A program made the translations under genes and the position numbers. The notes beneath the pieces were generated by a model that did not search any database, had not been told where the DNA came from, and saw only the letters and a list, made by a program, of their open reading frames with translations. From an uncultured Lachnospiraceae bacterium (lineage in GTDB: Bacteria; Bacillota; Clostridia; Lachnospirales; Lachnospiraceae), in contig CAJOPI010000118.1 of the NCBI GenBank assembly GCA_905236275.1, positions 1 to 12,710 on the forward strand: a stretch of DNA of 12,710 bases, written 5' to 3'. This document shows positions 1,667 through 12,233 of the stretch, in pieces; position 1 is the stretch's first letter, and each line of letters starts with the position of its first letter.

Positions 1667-1701
1667 GAAGTGGGCCTGATTGCAGAATATAGGAGTTGAA
1701 A

Positions 1702-2943
1702 ATGGCAGATATAAGACCTTTCAGGGCAGTGAGACCGGATACGGGGAAGGCGGCGGATATTGCCGCACTTCCATATGACGTATATTCAAGACAGGAGGCG
1801 AAGGCTGAAGCAGCTGATAAGCCACTGTCTTTTTTGCGTATAGACAGACCTGAAATAAATTTTGATGACAGTGTAGATATTTACGATCCCCGCTGCTACG
1901 AAAAGGCAGGAGAATTGCTGGATTCAATGATAAAATCAGGAGATTTCATAGAGGATGAAAGTCCCTCATATTATATATATGAGCTGACGATGGATGGACG
2001 CAGCCAGACAGGCATAGTGGCTACAGCTTCGGTTGATGATTACAACAATAAGATCATAAAAAAACATGAAAATACAAGAGAGGACAAGGAAATAGACAGG
2101 ATACGCCATGTTGAAGCCTGCTCCGCGCAGACGGGACCTATTTTCCTTGGCTATCGTTCAAATGACATTATCAATAAAACGGTAGATGATATAAAGAAGG
2201 AAAGCGCACCTCTTTATAACTTTGTAAGTCCTGACGGAGTCGGACACAGGGTTTGGATAATAAAAGAGGAAGAAAGAATTGACAGGATAAGAAAGGAATT
2301 TAAGTCGATAAATTCCATTTACATCTGTGACGGGCATCACAGATGTGCCTCGGCAGTCAAGGCGGCGGAGAGAAAAAGAAATGCGGTTCCCGACCGTAAG
2401 GGAGATGAAGAGTTTAATTTCTTTCTGTCGGTGCTTTTTCCTGATGACCAGCTTCTTATAATGGATTACAACAGAGTCGTAAAGGATCTGAACGGACTTT
2501 CCGAGGACAGATTTTTTGACCGGGTAAGAAAGAAGTTTGTGATCGAGGATGCCGGAGAGAGTGCATACAGACCCGAGGCCAAGGGAAATTTCGGAATGTA
2601 CATCAGCGGGAAATGGTATCATCTTACGGCGAAACCTGAGACAAAGCTTGATGATCCGGTTGATGTACTTGATGTATCGGTTCTTCAGAATGAACTGCTG
2701 GCTCCGATACTGAATATTGAAGATCCAAGGACAGATTCGAGAATTAAGTTTGTGGGCGGTATCAGAGGCTTAAAGGAGCTTGAAAGGCTTGTTGATTCAA
2801 GAAAATACGCGGTAGCCTTTTCAATGTATCCTACGGATATCAGTGAGCTTTTTGAGGTGGCAGATAAAAACGCACTTATGCCGCCGAAATCCACATGGTT
2901 TGAACCCAAGCTCAGAAGCGGGCTTTTTATACATAAGTTTTAA
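1702..2943 (+). CDS. DUF1015 family protein (function unknown)
   Basis: A 413-residue protein of the widespread but uncharacterised DUF1015 (PF06245) family. It matches the family from its first residues (IRPFRAVRPD at 4-13) and shows DVYSRQEA, SFLRIDRPE, KHENTREDKE starting at 121, GPIFLGYR, and the signature DGHHR at 210-214 in a hydrophobic-strand context (YICDGHHRCASA). The DGHHR motif recalls the nucleotide-binding motif of ParB/Srx-fold enzymes such as the serine kinase SerK. That likeness is my inference, not proof of kinase activity. It is a soluble cytosolic protein with no signal peptide or membrane segment. The ATG at 1702 is chosen because AGGAG (1691-1695) lies 6 bases upstream; an in-frame TTG at 1696 touches that site and is implausible. 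The gene is first in a likely three-gene unit, 19 bases before the branching-enzyme homologue. In other Clostridia I recall DUF1015 genes near serine biosynthesis genes; none is visible here. Confidence 0.88.
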   Translation: MADIRPFRAVRPDTGKAADIAALPYDVYSRQEAKAEAADKPLSFLRIDRPEINFDDSVDIYDPRCYEKAGELLDSMIKSGDFIEDESPSYYIYELTMDGRSQTGIVATASVDDYNNKIIKKHENTREDKEIDRIRHVEACSAQTGPIFLGYRSNDIINKTVDDIKKESAPLYNFVSPDGVGHRVWIIKEEERIDRIRKEFKSINSIYICDGHHRCASAVKAAERKRNAVPDRKGDEEFNFFLSVLFPDDQLLIMDYNRVVKDLNGLSEDRFFDRVRKKFVIEDAGESAYRPEAKGNFGMYISGKWYHLTAKPETKLDDPVDVLDVSVLQNELLAPILNIEDPRTDSRIKFVGGIRGLKELERLVDSRKYAVAFSMYPTDISELFEVADKNALMPPKSTWFEPKLRSGLFIHKF

Positions 2944-2962
2944 TAGACGAGGAGTTTTTTAG

Positions 2963-5230
2963 ATGACAAAGAAAGTTTATAATCTCATGGATTGGGCGGC
3001 AATTGAGGCGATTACCTATTCGGAGGAGGATCATCCGAAGGAACTTCTCGGAGCACACGCAGTTGGAAGTCAGACCTTGATTCAGGTATTTATTCCCGAG
3101 GCAAAAAAGGTCTCTGTGAGGGTGGGACGTTCAAAAACTCCCATAGAATGTGAGCTTGCAGATGAAAGCGGATATTTTGCATGTCTTGTAAAAAGAAAGT
3201 TCCCCTTCCAGTATACCCTTATATATGAGGATAAGGACGGAAGGACTGTAGAGACTGCCGACCCTTATTCCTTTGAAAATATCATAAGCGAGAAGGATGT
3301 TCTGAAATTCGCAGAGGGTATTCATTATCATATCTATGAGATTCTCGGTGCACATACCATGGAGATTGACGGAGTTAAGGGTACTCATTTTGCGCTCTGG
3401 GCTCCTGCTGCGATGAGAGTCAGCGTTGTGGGCGAATTCAATGGCTGGGATGGCAGAATGCACCAGATGGAACGCCTATATGATTCCGGAATATTCGAGA
3501 TTTTTGTTCCGGGAGTGGAAGATGGAGCCGTTTATAAATTTGAATTAAAGAAAAAGAACGGTACTGTTATTTATAAATCCGACCCTTATGAATTTGGCGG
3601 AGAAATGAGACCCTTGAATGCTTCGGTTGTTCGTGATATTTCGGACTTCAGCTGGAATGATGACGAATGGCTTAAAAATCGTGCCAAGAAAAAATCCGAA
3701 AATGAGCCGATGCTTGTCTATGAGCTTCATTTAGGCACGTGGAAGAGACGTTCCCTGACAGCTAAGGAAAAAGAAAAAAACTGGGAAGATGTTGACAGGG
3801 AAGGTCTTTATTTCATGAACTACAGAAAGATTGCGCCTGAACTTGCAAAATATGTTCATGAAATGGGATATACCCATGTGGAGCTTATGCCCGTAATGGA
3901 GCATCCTTTTGATTTTTCCAACGGTTATCAGATAACGGGTTACTATGCGCCGACGAGACGTTTCGGAACGCCGGAGGACTTCGCATGGTTTATGAATTAT
4001 ATGCATTCGGAAGGGATAGGCGTAATCCTTGACTGGTCGGCAGCTAATTTCCCGAAGGATGATTTCGGACTTGAATGTTTTGACGGAACACATCTTTACG
4101 AGAGCAGCAATTCAAGAAGAAGAAAGCATCCTGATGCCGGTACGTGGATGTTTGATTTTGGACGTCCGCAGGTCAAGAATTATCTGATTTCGAGTGCTCT
4201 CTTCTGGGTTAACGTATATCATGCTGACGGAATAAGGGTTAATGACCTTGACTATATACTTTATCATGATTTCGGAAAGAATGACGGGGAATGGGATGCG
4301 AATATCTATGGCGGAAGGGAAAACCTTGAAGGTATAGAATTTATAAAGCATCTTACCTCTGTCTTTGCTAAAAATGCAAGAGGCTCTCTGATAATTGCCG
4401 AGGAGTCCGCAGCATGGTCAGGAGTTACGGCTTCGTTAGAGGATGGCGGACTTGGTTTTGATTATAAATGGAATAATGGCTGGAAGAATGATTTCTTAGG
4501 CTATATGGCTTATGACCATCATGCGCGCTCGAATCATTATGGCGAGCTTTGCTTCCCGATGATATATGCGTATACGGAAAAGTATATCCTGCCTTTTTCC
4601 CATAATGAGTCGATGGGACCGGCGGGGTCGCTCATAAACAGGATGAGCGGGATTAACAGGGATGAAAAGTTTGCGAATATGAAGACGGCTTTTGCTTTCT
4701 TTATGACTCATCCCGGTAAAAAGCTTCTCTTTATGGGACAGGATATTGGAGAATTTGATGAGTGGAATGCCGGCAGGGAGATAGAGTGGAATCTTCTCGA
4801 GGGTGAGGAACACAAGTGGTTTCATGCGGCGGTTAAGGATATGATAGCCCTTTACAGGGAGAATCCTGCCCTTTACGCGCTTGACCATGAGGAAGACGGA
4901 TTCGAATGGATAAACTGCATTTCCGCAAATGAAAATATCGTTGTTTACCTGAGGAAGACAAAGAAAGAGAATGAAACCCTGCTCTTTGTTGCTAATTTTG
5001 AAAATGTTCCGAGGAAAAATTATAAGATTGGTGTTCCTTTTGAGGGAAAATATAAGGAAATCTTTAATACAGATGCGGAAAAATACGGTGGTTTCGATTT
5101 CAGAAATACAAGATGCTATAATTCGGATAAGGATGAGTGCGATGGAAGGGAAGATTCAATAAGGATCAAGGTTCCACCGCTGGCAGTTTCCGTATTTAAG
5201 TGTACACCGGAAAAAAGGCTAAGGAACTGA
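2963..5230 (+). CDS. GlgB-like GH13 protein, predicted inactive branching enzyme
   Basis: A 755-residue homologue of 1,4-alpha-glucan branching enzyme, collinear with E. coli GlgB. It has an N-terminal N1/CBM48-like domain (about 20-110), a second CBM48 domain (about 118-225, with FALWAPAA and GEFNGWDG), a GH13 barrel (about 245-640) and a C-terminal beta domain to 755. Family hallmarks are intact: ELHLGTWKRR, GYTHVELMPVMEHPFD, GGRENLEGIEF, FPGKKLLFMG-like HPGKKLLFMG. Of the seven invariant active-site residues, D357, R425, E480 and H547 remain. The other three are all Asn: N362 for the region-I His (DWSAANF), N427 for the nucleophile Asp (GIRVNDL) and N548 for the transition-state Asp (SHNES). 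An enzyme without its nucleophile should not branch glucan, so I predict a glucan-binding or regulatory pseudoenzyme. The frame is intact, arguing against a decaying pseudogene. AGGAG lies 8 bases before the ATG. It is flanked closely by DUF1015 and an MscS channel gene, and no other glg genes are present. Confidence 0.9.
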   Translation: MTKKVYNLMDWAAIEAITYSEEDHPKELLGAHAVGSQTLIQVFIPEAKKVSVRVGRSKTPIECELADESGYFACLVKRKFPFQYTLIYEDKDGRTVETADPYSFENIISEKDVLKFAEGIHYHIYEILGAHTMEIDGVKGTHFALWAPAAMRVSVVGEFNGWDGRMHQMERLYDSGIFEIFVPGVEDGAVYKFELKKKNGTVIYKSDPYEFGGEMRPLNASVVRDISDFSWNDDEWLKNRAKKKSENEPMLVYELHLGTWKRRSLTAKEKEKNWEDVDREGLYFMNYRKIAPELAKYVHEMGYTHVELMPVMEHPFDFSNGYQITGYYAPTRRFGTPEDFAWFMNYMHSEGIGVILDWSAANFPKDDFGLECFDGTHLYESSNSRRRKHPDAGTWMFDFGRPQVKNYLISSALFWVNVYHADGIRVNDLDYILYHDFGKNDGEWDANIYGGRENLEGIEFIKHLTSVFAKNARGSLIIAEESAAWSGVTASLEDGGLGFDYKWNNGWKNDFLGYMAYDHHARSNHYGELCFPMIYAYTEKYILPFSHNESMGPAGSLINRMSGINRDEKFANMKTAFAFFMTHPGKKLLFMGQDIGEFDEWNAGREIEWNLLEGEEHKWFHAAVKDMIALYRENPALYALDHEEDGFEWINCISANENIVVYLRKTKKENETLLFVANFENVPRKNYKIGVPFEGKYKEIFNTDAEKYGGFDFRNTRCYNSDKDECDGREDSIRIKVPPLAVSVFKCTPEKRLRN

Positions 5231-5236
5231 TAAGAG

Positions 5237-6181
5237 ATGATGGCAGACACAGAATTAAGCGTTTCTCTGGATTCCGTATCGAATAACATGACGGAAATAT
5301 CGGAGACGCTTAAGAATATAAATAATTTAAGCTCCTTAAAGCAGGAGGTAACAAAGGGCTTTTTCGCAGAATATTTAGAGACTGTTCCCTCTAAGCTCTT
5401 TAATCTTGGAGTGAGGGTCATATTTGCACTGATATGCTATTTCCTCGGTTCTAAGCTGATTGAGTTTGCGAGAAAAATTGTTATTAAATCGCTTGAAAAG
5501 ACGGGAATGGAAAAGGGTGTGATCCATTTCGTTGACTCCTGTGTTAAATTCCTGCTCTATGTCATTTTGATAATGATAGTTGCTTCGGGATTCGGAGTTG
5601 ATGCGACCTCGATAGTGGCTGTGCTCGGTTCCATTGGTCTTACCGTTGGACTTGCACTGCAGGGAAGCTTTTCAAACTTTGCAGGCGGTATCATCCTTCT
5701 TTTGATGAAACCCTTCAAGGTCGGGGATTATATCAAAGAGGATTCACATGGAAATGAGGGTGTTGTGACAAGCATAAAGCTTTTCTATACCACGCTCAGA
5801 ACTATTGACAATAAGGTTGTGCTCATTCCGAACGGAACCCTCTGCAACAGCTCCATGACAAATGTTACATGGCATGAAGAAAGATGCATTGATTATTCGA
5901 TCGGAATAAGCTATGACTCGGATATTATTCTGGCAAAGGAAACGCTTAAGGGTCTTATAATGGAGGATGAAGGTCTCCTTCGTCCCGGAGATATTAAAAT
6001 ATTTGTAAGGGAGCTCGCTGACAGCGCGGTGGTTATCGGAGCACGTTATTTTGTCAGAACCTCGTCTTATTGGGACTCTCTGTGGAATATGAATGAAGCT
6101 GTAAAGCTTAAATTTGATGAAGTGGGAATTCAGATTCCATATAATCAGATGGATGTGCATATTAAAAATAACAGTTCCTAA
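5237..6181 (+). CDS. MscS-family small-conductance mechanosensitive channel
   Basis: A 314-residue protein of the MscS family, which opens under membrane tension to release solutes during hypo-osmotic shock. Residues 1-50 are a polar, probably helical extension (repeated Ser/Leu/Asn heptad-like pattern). Three hydrophobic helices follow at about 58-78, 101-118 and 125-157. The last carries the pore-lining Gly/Ala-rich signature (GSIGLTVGLALQGSFSNFAGG, 131-151), followed by the KPFKVGDYI hinge (158-166). The beta domain contains TTLRTIDNKVVLIPNG (185-200). The C-terminal alpha/beta vestibule runs to the end. Length is close to the 286 residues of E. coli MscS. The start is six bases after the preceding stop codon, with AAGGA overlapping that gene's end, so translation is probably coupled. 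ATG 5240 immediately after is an alternative start. A hairpin follows 11 bases after the stop codon. Confidence 0.93.
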   Translation: MMADTELSVSLDSVSNNMTEISETLKNINNLSSLKQEVTKGFFAEYLETVPSKLFNLGVRVIFALICYFLGSKLIEFARKIVIKSLEKTGMEKGVIHFVDSCVKFLLYVILIMIVASGFGVDATSIVAVLGSIGLTVGLALQGSFSNFAGGIILLLMKPFKVGDYIKEDSHGNEGVVTSIKLFYTTLRTIDNKVVLIPNGTLCNSSMTNVTWHEERCIDYSIGISYDSDIILAKETLKGLIMEDEGLLRPGDIKIFVRELADSAVVIGARYFVRTSSYWDSLWNMNEAVKLKFDEVGIQIPYNQMDVHIKNNSS

Positions 6182-6331: not shown

Positions 6332-6396
6332 CAAAGTGTATACAGATGTGATCAGACAAGGATGTCGCCTGACATATACAAAGGAGTGTGATTTTT

Positions 6397-7089
6397 GTGT
6401 CGTTAAATGTTAATACACTTTCAAAATCGTCATTTGATTATTCAAGCTGGTTTTCCACAAATTCATCCGATAATTCGGGAAATACACTTTTAGCAGACTA
6501 TGCCGCTATAAAAAACGGTTCCTTAAAGAAGCTTTATAAGGCTTATTACAGTACGGAAGGTGTTGACAGCGAAGCTGAGGAAAAGAAATCCGAGGCTTAT
6601 TCCACTGTTAAAGGCGATGCTTCGAAGCTTCGCAAGACCTTGGATAAACTCCAGAGTTCAAGCCTGTACGACGGAAATTCTACAGATAAGCTTTACAGTG
6701 CTGTTAAAGATTTTGTTACTGATTACAACAAGGCTTTCAGTTCGGCTGCTTCGGAGGATGCTGAAGCAGCAAACAGCATGGCATTGAAGCTGGGCAAGAC
6801 AACTTCAACCTATACAAATCAGCTGGAGAGCATTGGAATCAGCATGGATGAGGACGGGAAGCTGTCGATTGATGAGGATAAGTTCAAGGAGGCTGTTTCG
6901 ACCTCGACGGGACTTGCAACGGCAAAGGATTTGTTTGGCTCTAACTACGGATATTCGAATACACTGACCAACAAGGCTTCAGTTATTGAGTCGATTGCCG
7001 CTAACAAGGTTAAGTCTGATAAAATGACCTACAATGCTGACGGAAACGGTTCATCGGTTCTTGACAGTTTAATAAATATGAACGCATAA
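6397..7089 (+). CDS. FliD C-terminal-domain-like protein, function unknown
   Basis: A 230-residue protein, Ser/Thr/Asn/Lys-rich and without cysteine, with no signal peptide or membrane segment. Residues about 95-170 resemble the C-terminal region of the flagellar filament cap FliD: a helical stretch (LYSAVKDFVTDYNKAF) followed by LESIGISMDEDGKLSIDEDKFKEAV-type sequence from 143 to 167. In FliD this 'LxxIGI...DGKLxID...F' pattern precedes the final coiled coil. The protein is far shorter than FliD (usually above 400 residues) and lacks the FliD N-terminus, so I do not call it fliD. Similar short Ser-rich proteins beginning 'MSxNVNTL...ADYAxIKNGS' are, as far as I recall, common hypotheticals in flagellated Lachnospiraceae. 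GTG 6397 is chosen as start because AAGGAG (6381-6386) lies 10 bases upstream; the GTG at 6388 is one base from that site. It may be exported with the flagellar system, but no other flagellar gene is visible. Confidence 0.7.
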   Translation: MSLNVNTLSKSSFDYSSWFSTNSSDNSGNTLLADYAAIKNGSLKKLYKAYYSTEGVDSEAEEKKSEAYSTVKGDASKLRKTLDKLQSSSLYDGNSTDKLYSAVKDFVTDYNKAFSSAASEDAEAANSMALKLGKTTSTYTNQLESIGISMDEDGKLSIDEDKFKEAVSTSTGLATAKDLFGSNYGYSNTLTNKASVIESIAANKVKSDKMTYNADGNGSSVLDSLINMNA

Positions 7090-7195: not shown

Positions 7196-7266
7196 AGCAA
7201 GTGACGGGAATCGAACCCGCGTCATCAGCTTGGGAAGCTGATGTTCTGCCATTGAACCACACCTGC
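7196..7266 (-). tRNA. tRNA-Gly, anticodon CCC
   Basis: The minus strand folds as a 71-base tRNA without an encoded CCA. The acceptor stem GCAGGTG/CACTTGC has seven pairs with one G-U. The D-arm contains GGTTCAATGGCAGAAC. The anticodon arm is TCAGC-TTCCCAA-GCTGA, placing CCC (complement of 7232-7234) at positions 34-36. The T-arm is CGGG-TTCGATT-CCCG. It reads GGG glycine codons. The base at the discriminator position is T and is followed by TTAAG, so CCA must be added by nucleotidyltransferase. A fitting promoter lies upstream and a terminator downstream. Confidence 0.95.
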
Positions 7267-8630: not shown

Positions 8631-9968
8631 ATGTCACAGTATACTTTCAGTGGAGGCATTCATCCTTTTGACGGCAAGGGGCTGTCAAAGGATAAGCCTG
8701 TAAAAGAGGTGCTGCCAAAGGGATTACTGGTATTTCCGCTTTCACAGCACATCGGGGCTCCTGCGAAGGCTGTTGTTGCGGTAGGCGACAGTGTAAAGGC
8801 AGGACAGCTTATTGCTGAGGCAAACGGATTTGTTTCGGCAAACATTTTTTCTTCGGTCAGCGGTACAGTCAAGGCAATCGAGCCGCATCGTGTACCTACG
8901 GGAGCCATGGTAAACTCGATAGTTATCGAGAATGACGGCAAATATGAGGAGGTATCTTATCCTGCGCCGAAAGCCTATGAGGAAATGACCGGAGAAGAAA
9001 TAGTCAACGCAGTCAGGGCAGCAGGTGTAGTAGGAATGGGCGGAGCCGGATTTCCGACAGCGGTAAAGCTTTCTCCGAAAAATCCTGAAAAGATTGACTA
9101 TATTATAGCTAACTGCGTTGAATGTGAACCATATCTTACATCTGATTACAGACGCATGATGGAAAATCCGGAGCTTGTCATTGACGGATTGAAATGTGTC
9201 CTCAAGGTTTTTCCGAGAGCAAGGGGAATAATAGCAATAGAGGATAATAAGCCCGATGCTGTCGAGAAGATGAAAAGCCTTACGGCAAATGAATCATCTA
9301 TAGAGGTTTACTCCTTAAAAACAAAATATCCGCAGGGAGGAGAGCGCCAGCTTATCTATGCATGTACAAAGCGTGCCATAAATTCGAAGATGCTGCCGGC
9401 AGATGCAGGCTGTATCGTGGATAACTGCGAGACTCTTGTGGCGATCAATCGCGCGGTTAAGGAGAATAAACCTACTTTTCAGAGAATTGTTACCATTACG
9501 GGTGATGCGATCAATGACCCGCGAAATTTCCTCGTGCGTATGGGAAGCAGCTTCAACGAACTGATTTCCGAAGCGGGCGGGCTTAAATCAGAGCCTGAGC
9601 AGATCGTATCAGGTGGTCCGATGATGGGATTTTCCGTACTTGAAACAGACGTGCCTGTAACAAAGACATCGTCAGCAATGCTGTTCCTTTTAAGGGATGA
9701 TGCCCTTCACGCAGAGGAAACAGCCTGCATCAACTGCGGACGCTGCGTTGAGGTCTGCCCTTCAAGGCTCATTCCTTCACAGCTTGCCACCTATGGAGAA
9801 CATGAGAATTATGAAAAGTTCAATCAGCTTTTCGGCTCGGAATGTATCGAGTGCGGTTCCTGTTCTTATGTATGCCCCGCTAAAAGACAGCTTGCACAGG
9901 CTATTAAGGGTATGAAGAGACTTGCGGCGGCTAAGGCTAAAGAAGAAGCGAAGGGTGGTGACAAATAA
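8631..9968 (+). CDS. rnfC: Rnf electron transport complex subunit RnfC
   Basis: A 445-residue peripheral cytoplasmic subunit of the Rnf complex, which couples ferredoxin oxidation and NAD+ reduction to ion export. The N-terminus has the family start FSGGIHPFDGKGLS and a barrel-sandwich (biotinyl-like) region with VGDSVKAGQLIAEA. A NuoF-like flavin/NADH-binding loop GVVGMGGAGFPT spans 132-143, followed by CVECEPYLTSDYR. Two CxxCxxCxxxCP motifs at 366-377 and 405-416 bind two [4Fe-4S] clusters. The C-terminus is short and Ala/Lys-rich, lacking the long Ala-rich tail of proteobacterial RnfC, as is normal in Clostridia. The ATG follows AGAGAGGG by 7 bases. It is the first gene of the operon; its TAA overlaps the rnfD ATG by one base. 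Confidence 0.97.
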   Translation: MSQYTFSGGIHPFDGKGLSKDKPVKEVLPKGLLVFPLSQHIGAPAKAVVAVGDSVKAGQLIAEANGFVSANIFSSVSGTVKAIEPHRVPTGAMVNSIVIENDGKYEEVSYPAPKAYEEMTGEEIVNAVRAAGVVGMGGAGFPTAVKLSPKNPEKIDYIIANCVECEPYLTSDYRRMMENPELVIDGLKCVLKVFPRARGIIAIEDNKPDAVEKMKSLTANESSIEVYSLKTKYPQGGERQLIYACTKRAINSKMLPADAGCIVDNCETLVAINRAVKENKPTFQRIVTITGDAINDPRNFLVRMGSSFNELISEAGGLKSEPEQIVSGGPMMGFSVLETDVPVTKTSSAMLFLLRDDALHAEETACINCGRCVEVCPSRLIPSQLATYGEHENYEKFNQLFGSECIECGSCSYVCPAKRQLAQAIKGMKRLAAAKAKEEAKGGDK

Positions 9969-10921
9969 TGGCAGAAGAGAAGAAGCTTTTAAATGTATCT
10001 TCAAATCCTCATGTCAGGGACAGGATTACCACGCGGACAATCATGCTTCTGGTATTTCTGGCATTGCTTCCTGCGACGGGATACGGAGTTTATCATTTTG
10101 GACTTTACTCACTTGCGGTTGTCCTTGTAACGACAGGCTCGGCAGTAATCTGGGAGTTTATCTGGACTAAGTGCATGAAGAAAAAGAGTACGATAGAAGA
10201 TCTTTCGGCAGCGGTTACAGGACTTCTGCTCGCACTTAATATGCCTCCGAGGATTCCCATCTGGATATGTGTTTTAGGTTCCTTCTTTGCAATAATTGTT
10301 GTAAAGAACCTTTTCGGAGGACTTGGACAGAACTTTATGAATCCTGCTTTGGGTGCAAGATGTTTCCTGCTCATTTCTTTTGCCGGAAAAATGGCTGATT
10401 TTGCCTATGACAGCGTTTCGGGCGCAACCTACCTTGCAAATCTTAAGAACGGAAGCTCTTTTGATGCTTCGGCAATGGTATGGGGTAACGAAATGGGAAC
10501 CATAGGAGAGACAAGTGTTATCGCTATAGTAATCGGAGCGTGCATTCTTCTTGCCTTTGGAATTATCGATCTTACGATACCCGGAACCTATATCCTGACC
10601 TTTGTTGTATTCTGGTGTCTTTTCGGAGGACATGGTGCTGATCCCGGATATCTTACGGCAGAGCTCGCAGGCGGCGGACTTATGCTGGGTGCATTTTTCA
10701 TGGCAACCGATTATGTAACGAGCCCTATTACTACAAAGGGACGGATTGTCTATGGAATTATCCTCGGAGTCTTAACGGGCGTGTTCAGGGTATTTTCTTC
10801 GGGAGCAGAAGGCGTTTCTTACGCGATAATCGTATCAAACCTGCTTGTACCGCTTATCGAGCGTGCTACACCGCCTAAGTGCTTTGGCTATGTGAAGCCG
10901 GTGAAAGGAGGCAGGGCTTAA
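9968..10921 (+). CDS. rnfD: Rnf electron transport complex subunit RnfD
   Basis: A 317-residue integral membrane subunit of Rnf, homologous to NqrB. It opens with the family SSNPHVRDRITTRTIM motif (11-26) and has around eight to ten hydrophobic helices. The GGLGQNFMNPALGARCFL segment is the conserved flavin/quinone-site region. The covalent FMN site is expected at Thr154 in VSGATYLA (SGAT motif), attached through phosphoester by an ApbE-type flavin transferase not encoded here. KGRIVYGIILGVLTGVFRVF and the terminal PLIERATPPKCFG are typical. The start is set by the TAATG overlap with rnfC; the ribosome site GGGTGG (9953-9958) is only fair, suggesting translational coupling. The stop overlaps the rnfG start in the same way. 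Confidence 0.97.
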   Translation: MAEEKKLLNVSSNPHVRDRITTRTIMLLVFLALLPATGYGVYHFGLYSLAVVLVTTGSAVIWEFIWTKCMKKKSTIEDLSAAVTGLLLALNMPPRIPIWICVLGSFFAIIVVKNLFGGLGQNFMNPALGARCFLLISFAGKMADFAYDSVSGATYLANLKNGSSFDASAMVWGNEMGTIGETSVIAIVIGACILLAFGIIDLTIPGTYILTFVVFWCLFGGHGADPGYLTAELAGGGLMLGAFFMATDYVTSPITTKGRIVYGIILGVLTGVFRVFSSGAEGVSYAIIVSNLLVPLIERATPPKCFGYVKPVKGGRA

Positions 10922-11493
10922 TGAGCAAGGAATTAAAGAATACATTAATAATAACAGCCTTTGCGCTTGTTTCCGGACTGGCTCTCGGAGCCGTTCACCA
11001 GGTTACGGCCGGACCCATCGCCGCACAGAAGCAGCAGGCTTTGAATGAGGCCTATAGTGCCGTAATAGCTGAGGCAGCCAATTTCAACGATCTCGGAATC
11101 GAAGCCTATGATGACGCAGATTACAATGCACAGATAGCTTCGGTCTTGTCTGCTGAGGATGCTTCAGGAGCGAATGCGGGTTATGTCGTAAATGTTGTTT
11201 CTCATGGAGGATATGGCGGAGATATTGAATTTTCCGTTGGCGTAAAGAATGACGGAACGATTGAGAATATTTCGATCACCGCTATTTCGGAAACTCCCGG
11301 CCTTGGAATGAAGGCTCAGACGGAGCCTGATTTCATAGGACAGTTCTTAGGACAGAGCGTTGATAATGATTATGTGCTCGGAGATAATGTTACGGCAATC
11401 ACAAGTGCAACATTTACTTCGCGCTGTATGACAAACGGTATCAATGCCGCGTTAAAGTATTACACAAATAATTTAGCGGGAGGTACACAATAA
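10921..11493 (+). CDS. rnfG: Rnf electron transport complex subunit RnfG
   Basis: A 190-residue FMN-binding subunit, homologous to NqrC. One N-terminal membrane helix (about 7-27, NTLIITAFALVSGLALGAVH) anchors an extracytoplasmic FMN_bind domain. ISETPGLGMKAQ (about 120-131) is the conserved loop. The covalent-FMN motif reads ITSATFTS (160-167), with Thr164 the probable acceptor. The usual Gly of (S/T)GAT is Ser162 here, a variant I believe occurs in other clostridial RnfG. The start at 10921 is chosen because AAAGGAGG (10904-10911) lies 9 bases upstream and the TAATG overlap matches the other junctions. An upstream in-frame ATG at 10879 lies inside rnfD and lacks a ribosome site. Confidence 0.95.
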   Translation: MSKELKNTLIITAFALVSGLALGAVHQVTAGPIAAQKQQALNEAYSAVIAEAANFNDLGIEAYDDADYNAQIASVLSAEDASGANAGYVVNVVSHGGYGGDIEFSVGVKNDGTIENISITAISETPGLGMKAQTEPDFIGQFLGQSVDNDYVLGDNVTAITSATFTSRCMTNGINAALKYYTNNLAGGTQ

Positions 11494-12233
11494 TGAAGCC
11501 AAATTCACCGATAGAGAGACTTTTTAACGGCATAGTAAAAGAAAACCCCACGCTGGTTATCATTCTCGGAATGTGTCCTACGCTTGCGGTAACCACCTCG
11601 GCAATGAATGGAATAGGTATGGGACTTTCCACAACAGCCGTACTTGCAATGGCAAACCTTTTCATCTCGCTTTTGAGAAAGGTTATTCCCGATGAAGTGA
11701 GAATCCCTGCCTTTATCGTGGTCATAGCGTCCTTCGTTACGATGGTTGATATGCTTATGGAGGCTTATACTCCGGCACTTTATGAGCAGCTTGGAATTTA
11801 TATTCCGCTCATAGTTGTTAACTGTATTATTTTCGGACGTGCCGAGGCTTATGCATCAAAGAACGGTCCTGTTGCCTCACTTTTTGACGGAATTGGAATG
11901 GGTCTTGGATTCACCATTTCGATCACCATAATAGGATTTATACGTGAGCTGATTGGATCCGGTGCGGTATTCGGACATCCCATAGGCAGTCTTCCCGACT
12001 ATATGCCTTCTATTTTCGTAATGGCTCCGGGCGCATTTATGGTACTTGCTACAATGATCGTTGTACGTGCGAATATCATAAATCATATCGAGTCCAAGAA
12101 AGGTGTAAGACTTCCTGTCGAGCATACTGATGAGCCGGGTGCACAGTGTTCGGGATGTGCTTTTGTCGGCAGCTGTGCAGGTAAATTTCAGAAGTATGAG
12201 GCAGAATTTAAGAAGGAAGGAGAGACTAAGTAA
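11493..12233 (+). CDS. rnfE: Rnf electron transport complex subunit RnfE
   Basis: A 246-residue membrane subunit homologous to NqrD, with six predicted helices. Conserved half-helix cysteines are Cys28 (ILGMCPTLAV) and Cys111 (IVVNCIIFGRAEA); with the equivalent pair in RnfA they are known to hold an intramembrane [2Fe-2S] cluster. SLFDGIGMGLGF and GFIRELIGSG are family motifs. After the last helix (ending about 192) there is a tail of some 50 residues with CSGCAFVGSC (Cys219, Cys222, Cys228) and a charged end. NqrD and proteobacterial RnfE are shorter and lack this. Ribosome site GGGAGG (11478-11483) lies 9 bases before the ATG, which overlaps the rnfG stop by one base. Confidence 0.96.
   Translation: MKPNSPIERLFNGIVKENPTLVIILGMCPTLAVTTSAMNGIGMGLSTTAVLAMANLFISLLRKVIPDEVRIPAFIVVIASFVTMVDMLMEAYTPALYEQLGIYIPLIVVNCIIFGRAEAYASKNGPVASLFDGIGMGLGFTISITIIGFIRELIGSGAVFGHPIGSLPDYMPSIFVMAPGAFMVLATMIVVRANIINHIESKKGVRLPVEHTDEPGAQCSGCAFVGSCAGKFQKYEAEFKKEGETK

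Follow-up and report, generated by a model that had tools for sequence, protein, structure and literature searches.

Introduction

The catalytic triad of glycoside hydrolase family 13 (GH13) comprises an Asp on strand 4, a Glu on strand 5 and an Asp on strand 7 (review, PMC11046441). Homologues that depart from this arrangement have been described. MKIP1 (AtBE1), a plant class III branching enzyme, is reported to have lost two triad Asp residues, one of which is an Asn, and to have no branching activity (PMC13172542). The plant isoamylase ISA2 is described as a non-catalytic paralogue with six of eight key active-site residues changed that forms a heteromeric complex with ISA1 (PMC3958451), and GlgD of Firmicutes as an inactive subunit of ADP-glucose pyrophosphorylase (PMC9093745). 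The branching-enzyme domain of a GlgA-GlgB fusion in Criblamydiaceae and Waddliaceae is reported to be inactive, with another branching enzyme gene present (PMC11046441). The accessible portions of the openly licensed full-text literature yielded only this inactive fusion of some Chlamydiae, and no bacterial pseudo-GlgB of the substitution type. Here we analyze a stretch of 12,710 nucleotides (the window; positions 1 to 12,710 of contig CAJOPI010000118.1, assembly GCA_905236275.1) from an uncultured Lachnospiraceae bacterium, and in it the gene glgB2 (2963..5230, forward strand), which encodes a full-length paralogue of the branching enzyme GlgB with catalytic residues lost. We propose, with a probability of about 0.6, that glgB2 encodes a selected and recurrent non-catalytic GlgB paralogue, that is, a pseudoenzyme, which probably acts as a glucan-binding protein or partner subunit.

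The GlgB2 protein of the window

The uninterrupted open reading frame of glgB2 encodes 755 residues. The sequence exceeds the curated NCBIfam cut-offs for GlgB over its full length (PRK05402, 783 bits against a cut-off of 741; PRK12313, 745 against 577; TIGR01515, 714 against 464), which places the protein in the GlgB/GH13 branching enzyme sequence family. Pfam locates a GlgB_N (N1) domain (PF22019; residues 11-102, 2993..3268), a CBM48 (PF02922; residues 128-209, 3344..3589) and an all-beta alpha-amylase C-terminal domain (PF02806; residues 649-747, 4907..5203), all on the forward strand like the gene. The GH13 (beta/alpha)8 barrel region lies at about residues 250-635 (3710..4867), with bounds set by us; the Pfam Alpha-amylase model gives 47 bits for the protein, and its best stretch covers only residues 296-358. 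The order N1-CBM48-barrel-C is that of the GlgB fold, and the predicted structure lies approximately 1.8-2.7 Å (root mean square deviation) from the solved bacterial GlgBs that head the list of structural matches.

The protein was aligned to the solved branching enzyme of Cyanothece (5gr5 and kin; E about 1e-192), to which it is approximately 43% identical across the aligned part. The seven active-site residues D, H, R, D, E, H and D of that enzyme pair with D357 (GAC, 4031), N362 (AAT, 4046..4048), R425 (AGG, 4235), N427 (AAT, 4241..4243), E480 (GAG, 4400..4402), H547 (CAT, 4601) and N548 (AAT, 4604..4606). D357, R425, H547 and the catalytic acid/base E480 are thus retained, and Asn occupies the positions of the region-I His (H362N), the nucleophile Asp (D427N) and the transition-state Asp (D548N) of live GlgBs. 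By our offset count, N427 matches the residue named D434 in entry 6klf. The equivalent residues of E. coli GlgB, for which the Cyanothece enzyme stands in at residue level here, we take to be D335, H340, R403, D405, E458, H525 and D526. The initial annotation had described a full-length GlgB homologue with three of seven catalytic residues changed to Asn, and the NCBIfam scores, the AAT codons and the Cyanothece alignment bear this out. By the aligned residues (N427, E480, N548), the protein lacks the Asp-Glu-Asp triad expected of GlgB as an enzyme.

The changes extend beyond these three positions. As reference we took 110 long GlgBs that keep all seven residues, three live copies from the genus included, and the 189 sites at which these are at least 97% invariant. 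The window's protein is altered at 28 of the 189 sites, 27 in the barrel and one in CBM48, with none in N1 or the C-terminal domain. Altered sites make up 15 of the 38 within six residues of the seven positions, versus 13 of the 151 elsewhere (Fisher p 1.6e-5).

Orthologues and paralogues in the genus

Forty-eight genomes of the genus were searched, both GlgB genes were fetched where found, and their residues were tabulated; GlgB2 denotes the long GlgB and GlgB1 the short paralogue. GlgB2 is present in 46 genomes and was not found in two of the 48 (G028 and G035, 95% and 92% complete). All seven catalytic residues are kept in 14 of the 46 copies and at least one is lost in 32; the loss affects at least one triad residue in 30, and G044 (H362N) and G045 (R425K) are altered outside the triad. 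The states found include single changes (DNRDEHD, DHKDEHD, DHREEHD), the Asn triplet, ESKYAHW, NKKNDKS and RSVSDD-. Eleven of the 14 seven-residue copies combine unusual neighbouring motifs (AEDNS; HDAF- or HDVF-) with a fast barrel, and may be dead too; only those of G018, G040 and G043 look fully canonical. In the 41 GlgB2 rows that no contig end truncates, the frames are open over 688-802 residues; in G024, whose long copy keeps all seven residues, the match runs over a TAG that lies beyond the 744-residue frame.

The Asn triplet occurs in three of the 48 genomes, namely that of the window and two others whose proteins are 91% and 85% identical to it, as well as in the database protein P0002 (85%). 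A scan with one genome per species (38 loci) likewise returned, as the closest orthologue, a 91% identical protein with the same triplet. The fourth genome of the window's clade (RUI497; 84-85% identity over its pieces) reads DNRNEHR, with Arg at 548. An orthologue with all seven residues exists in Lachnospiraceae MA2020 (71% identity), and the loss in the window's protein is therefore lineage-specific.

The active site of GlgB1 is readable in 43 genus genomes, and 42 of these copies keep every readable residue (that of G022 is partial). The GlgB1 of G025 (L121; genome 82% complete) has Val at the catalytic acid/base (E to V, AVEST), and the GlgB2 of the same genome is altered too (ESKYAHW); either the Val is an error, or none of the GH13 branching enzymes found in this genome works. 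A third GlgB-like gene with intact catalytic residues and 34-36% identity was observed in G034 (L161, 866-2641) and was left out of the tree and the counts.

Repeated loss of catalytic residues

Trees were built with the active-site columns removed, and changes were counted on 67 rows, after 3 outgroup and 4 GlgB1 rows of 74 were left out. The GlgB2 genes of the genus form a single clade (100/100). The window's four genomes are nested within the live G018, G040 and G043 (supports 97/88 and 100/98), and one altered group is common to a 20-genome clade. A single loss, with all 32 lost genus rows as one clade, was rejected by the approximately unbiased test (p 1.9e-30). The test also rejects joining the window's clade with either of two other altered clades (p 0.004 and 0.0006); joining those two other clades, of 20 and of 4 genomes, with each other is not rejected (p 0.19). 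With regain allowed, the 67-row tree requires a minimum of 9 changes, or 4 if scoring is limited to genus rows, and a 130-row family tree at least 11; without regain, seven losses within the genus were counted by reading the 67-row tree. These counts vary with the rule used, and long branches may have drawn altered rows together. Catalytic residues have been lost repeatedly at the glgB2 locus.

Family-wide survey

Residues 1-256 served as the query across the family, at about one genome per genus, and matched a long form in 181 of the 299 genomes. We read 128 family copies (28 loci from the search and 100 fetched), taken best hits first by similarity over the N-terminal 256 residues; one (L225) has N over the active site and was left out. 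Among the 127 readable long GlgBs, 108 keep all seven residues and 19 are altered, each with a different set, a proportion that is not an unbiased rate owing to the order of sampling. A triad residue is lost in 18 of the 19. Every one of these 19 genomes carries another GlgB with DHRDEHD, which in G067 is itself a long form. Five more altered Lachnospiraceae loci from outside the genus came from the species scan (L012, L024, L037, L038 and L039), and their genomes each hold a short GlgB with DHRDEHD (L058, L062, L063, L053 and L055). All seven residues are present in 116 of the 120 database relatives listed (out of 7986 matches), the four altered ones being P0002, P0010, P0011 and P0013; P0010 (DCRKQHD) is named GlgB in the database. 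The 1095-residue database GlgB P0005 has a segment of the barrel repeated internally, probably an assembly duplication. The Asn triplet, which the initial annotation had proposed to look for across Lachnospiraceae, did not turn up widely: beyond the three genus genomes and P0002, the 127 readable family copies yielded no instance, and other lineages lost catalytic residues through other substitutions.

Selection and domain constraint

Ratios of nonsynonymous to synonymous divergence (dN/dS) were computed by the Nei-Gojobori method with our own script; the pairs share genomes and are not independent, and many dS values exceed 1 (saturation). Across 13 altered-altered GlgB2 pairs the ratio spans 0.023-0.090; four pairs drawn from the window's four-genome clade lie at 0.023-0.048. 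For the five GlgB2 pairs that keep all seven residues and have measurable dS the values are 0.027-0.067; a mixed pair stands at 0.046, a further pair was saturated, and the GlgB1 pairs that could be measured fall at 0.016-0.057. Among altered pairs, saturation is lowest in G037/G036 (dS 0.17, ratio 0.026) and G052/G032 (0.82, 0.056). The low ratios within the window's clade and the loss common to its closest orthologues support the selected pseudoenzyme proposed at the outset. Taken together, lineage-wide catalytic loss, a fold kept in the predicted model and purifying selection indicate that the window's protein would be classed as a pseudoenzyme.

At the invariant sites, the 19 altered family copies have changed 826 of 2451 cells in the barrel, 58 of 722 in CBM48, 3 of 171 in N1 and 8 of 228 in the C-terminal domain, and the three live genus copies 4 of 387 in the barrel. 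W162 of CBM48 is kept in 50 of 51 altered rows. Gaps were scored as changes; the window-clade row includes the fragment G036 (the comparison was repeated without it), and the 11-row set termed the 14-clade omits G044, G045 and G034. For domain rates, the truncated rows G020, G048 and G051 were left out. The barrel is the slowest part in intact family pairs (0.298 vs 0.574 for N1) and the fastest in the two large altered genus sets (0.358 and 0.346 vs 0.176 and 0.169 for N1). Scaled by GlgB1 divergence, with genomes lacking a full GlgB1 left out, the barrel runs at 2.8-3.5 in the two large sets vs 1.1 in live copies, and N1 at 1.45-1.75 vs 1.44. Measured to the nearest intact copy, the 19 altered family copies have barrel/N1 ratios of 0.80-1.44, and 5 of the 108 intact ones reach at least 0.80.

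Genomic context

The gene order in the window is DUF1015-glgB2-mscS, all on the forward strand. The DUF1015 gene (1696..2943), identified by Pfam and in relatives' loci, is a conserved upstream neighbour, and the 19-base gap between it and glgB2 holds a Shine-Dalgarno-like GAGGAG (2949..2954), as read from the sequence. A gene for an MscS-type channel (5237..6181; Pfam), often found downstream in relatives, starts 6 bases after glgB2. Of 28 genus stretches, some of them cut by contig ends, 27 carry DUF1015, 20 the MscS gene, 20 a serA-like gene (F3) and 17 a serC-like gene (F4), the names serA and serC being our reading of the sequences. At least one of the four neighbour genes accompanies 18 of 23 species-scan loci (one, L006, from the genus), with none at the other 5, and 17 of the 19 altered family loci, where MscS is adjacent in 12 and DUF1015 in 11. 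The two altered family loci without them are a 3.5-kb contig and L373. The serC-serA pair lies upstream in many relatives, altered or intact alike. Since intact and altered copies share these neighbours, they represent largely one orthologous locus.

Upstream in the window, serA and serC are absent and an unrelated reverse-strand open reading frame (1-1122) is present; it is open-ended, of at least 374 residues, and aminotransferase-like by eye. In fragments presumed to come from Firmicutes, DUF1015 (COG4198) genes are reported to lie under glycine riboswitches (PMC2211319). At Rfam gathering scores the window shows no riboswitch, its one hit being a tRNA-Gly (CCC) at 7196-7266 on the reverse strand, and the literature search returned no paper with both DUF1015 and serine kinase terms. 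Further downstream lie a 233-residue protein (6388-7089) with a weak FliD C-terminal match (Pfam 2e-8) and electron transport genes of the rnfC-D-G-E type (8631-12233; Pfam for the first only, the others by reading the open reading frames).

The window's genome also contains two glgC-glgD-like pairs, a single glgA, a single full glgP and two additional pieces of phosphorylase. The two separate pairs (contigs C74 and C408 of G000, the window's genome) were likewise seen in 5 of 7 relatives tested. Co-occurrence of GlgB2 with GlgA is uninformative, GlgA being present in 293 of the 299 family genomes; three of the six genomes without it (G097, G200 and G285) have the long GlgB N-terminus.

Discussion

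The replacement of both the nucleophile and the transition-state Asp by Asn would abolish the GH13 double displacement and leave the branching-enzyme fold in place. Judged from its residues, GlgB2 has very probably lost branching activity, and selection for a non-catalytic function is very likely. Because an intact GlgB performs branching, the active site of GlgB2 would be free to decay repeatedly, the gene itself not being free to go. The N1, CBM48 and C-terminal parts of GlgBs are thought to bind glucan and to set architecture. As these glucan-associated parts are retained, and dead partners such as GlgD and ISA2 are known in glucan pathways, we favour a glucan-binding or partner role. By analogy, and at a little under even odds, the three domains would hold alpha-glucan and/or the glycogen enzymes GlgB1 and GlgA, with the barrel as a scaffold, and GlgB2 would be a non-catalytic subunit on the model of GlgD with GlgC and ISA2 with ISA1; in the window's clade, the Asp-to-Asn cleft might even trap glucan. 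A broader version, in which the primary function of the whole Lachnospiraceae GlgB2 lineage is non-catalytic, with branching optional and shed repeatedly, and in which the protein, encoded beside DUF1015, a mechanosensitive channel and often genes of serine biosynthesis, is a glucan-binding regulator derived from a branching enzyme and coupling glycogen stores to amino-acid or osmotic physiology, seems unlikely.

Several observations weigh against this proposal. The window's own assembly (81.5% complete, 453 contigs) contains no second GlgB, so that the true GlgB presumed elsewhere by the initial annotation is found intact in the triplet-bearing relatives G053 and G037 and not in the window's genome. 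The gene that precedes GlgB1 in relatives is on contig C116 (match from base 26, residues 4-412 of 792, with in-match stops); the contig ends inside it, and the rest of the gene and GlgB1 are absent from the assembly. Given this break and the level of completeness, the window genome's GlgB1 probably lies in an assembly gap. Binding of glucan in the cleft is uncertain, because the triplet genomes no longer have the conserved W320 and W392, and weak or changed activity is conceivable, because E480 and H547 are still present in the window's copy. The neighbours of glgB2 are not glg genes, and co-occurrence with the near-universal GlgA carries no information on a glycogen link. Four of the five live dN/dS pairs come from the motif-eroded, possibly dead clade, with only G040/G043 (0.030) clearly canonical. 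Moreover, dN is higher in GlgB2 than in GlgB1 in five of five comparable altered pairs (0.100 vs 0.028 in G038/G058), which indicates that constraint is relaxed overall. The barrel/N1 reversal is absent in the ESK pair (0.161 vs 0.167) and slight in the window's clade (0.127 vs 0.116). N1 scaled by GlgB1 runs at 1.31-1.75 in three altered sets and the motif-odd set, 2.49 in the 4-genome clade and 1.44 in live copies; by the scaled rates of barrel and N1, the change is relief on the barrel, without sign of new constraint on N1.

The same neighbourhood gives rise to the rival that we consider least implausible, though still rather unlikely: a pseudoenzyme moonlighting outside glycogen and tied to DUF1015, MscS and the serine pathway. 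These neighbours recur family-wide beside intact or altered copies, no glg gene was noticed among them, and the reported glycine riboswitches (PMC2211319) point to serine/glycine metabolism; MKIP1, a plant branching enzyme said to have moved from starch to intron splicing (PMC13172542), provides a precedent. However, the largely retained CBM48, with its W162, suggests contact with glucan, the adjacency may be no more than a relic of an old operon, the gene context, shared by intact copies, is older than the loss, and the window lacks the upstream serA and serC. It is improbable that GlgB2 is still an enzyme, with residual or changed activity on glucan through E480 and other groups: D357, R425 and H547 also persist in the window's copy and purifying selection is strong, but the nucleophile and the transition-state Asp are gone along with most of the surrounding motif residues, and orthologous copies that lack E480 as well persist.

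The pseudoenzyme reading has also to be set against decay and error. A redundant gene with its loss pending would account for barrel invariants that erode far faster than in intact copies, for dN above that of GlgB1 and for the two genomes in which GlgB2 was not found; the low dN/dS, the 41 uncut open frames, an altered group that spans 20 genomes and the intact predicted fold make this very improbable. An artefact of the metagenome bin has a negligible probability, even with a fragmented assembly and a gene with in-match stops on another contig, as the same triplet is present in two other genomes, one of them assembled in 3 contigs (G037, 4.2 Mb), and the fourth genome of the clade shows yet another state. 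The states shared with relatives and the dN/dS led us to reject both sequencing error and recent decay.

If GlgB2 is non-catalytic, models of glycogen metabolism for Lachnospiraceae of the rumen and gut may count activities wrongly, as databases call such proteins branching enzymes. The conserved locus, with its repeated changes on the family tree and its altered and intact orthologues at 71% identity, constitutes a natural experiment on dispensable catalysis and the role of a pseudoenzyme.

Comparison with known systems

GlgB2 shares the N1-CBM48-barrel-C order and, as predicted, the fold of bacterial GlgBs (Cyanothece BE1, 5gqu; E. coli, 1m7x), and differs in the Asn at the nucleophile, transition-state Asp and region-I His, and in most neighbouring motif residues. 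Like GlgB2, MKIP1 is described as a retained branching-enzyme homologue with an altered triad that coexists with active paralogues; unlike it, MKIP1 is eukaryotic, forms a separate clade with a class-specific region and was recruited to chloroplast intron splicing (PMC13172542), whereas in GlgB2 a single locus of one bacterial family has undergone several scattered losses. As a plant organelle protein with MatK for a partner, MKIP1 serves here as an analogue only. The chlamydial GlgA-GlgB fusion, compared by its description, owes its inactivity to rearrangement and to being fused with glgA, and belongs to a defective pathway (PMC11046441); GlgB2, by contrast, is free-standing, carries active-site substitutions and belongs to an apparently complete pathway. 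ISA2 likewise stands in a glucan pathway beside an active paralogue (PMC3958451), but it is a debranching enzyme, and its complex with ISA1 is reported, that of GlgB2 with a partner being a proposal. GlgD belongs to a different enzyme family and has a known partner and regulatory effect (PMC9093745); like the proposed GlgB2, it is a dead protein of the same pathway beside an active relative, and glgC/glgD-like pairs are present in these genomes.
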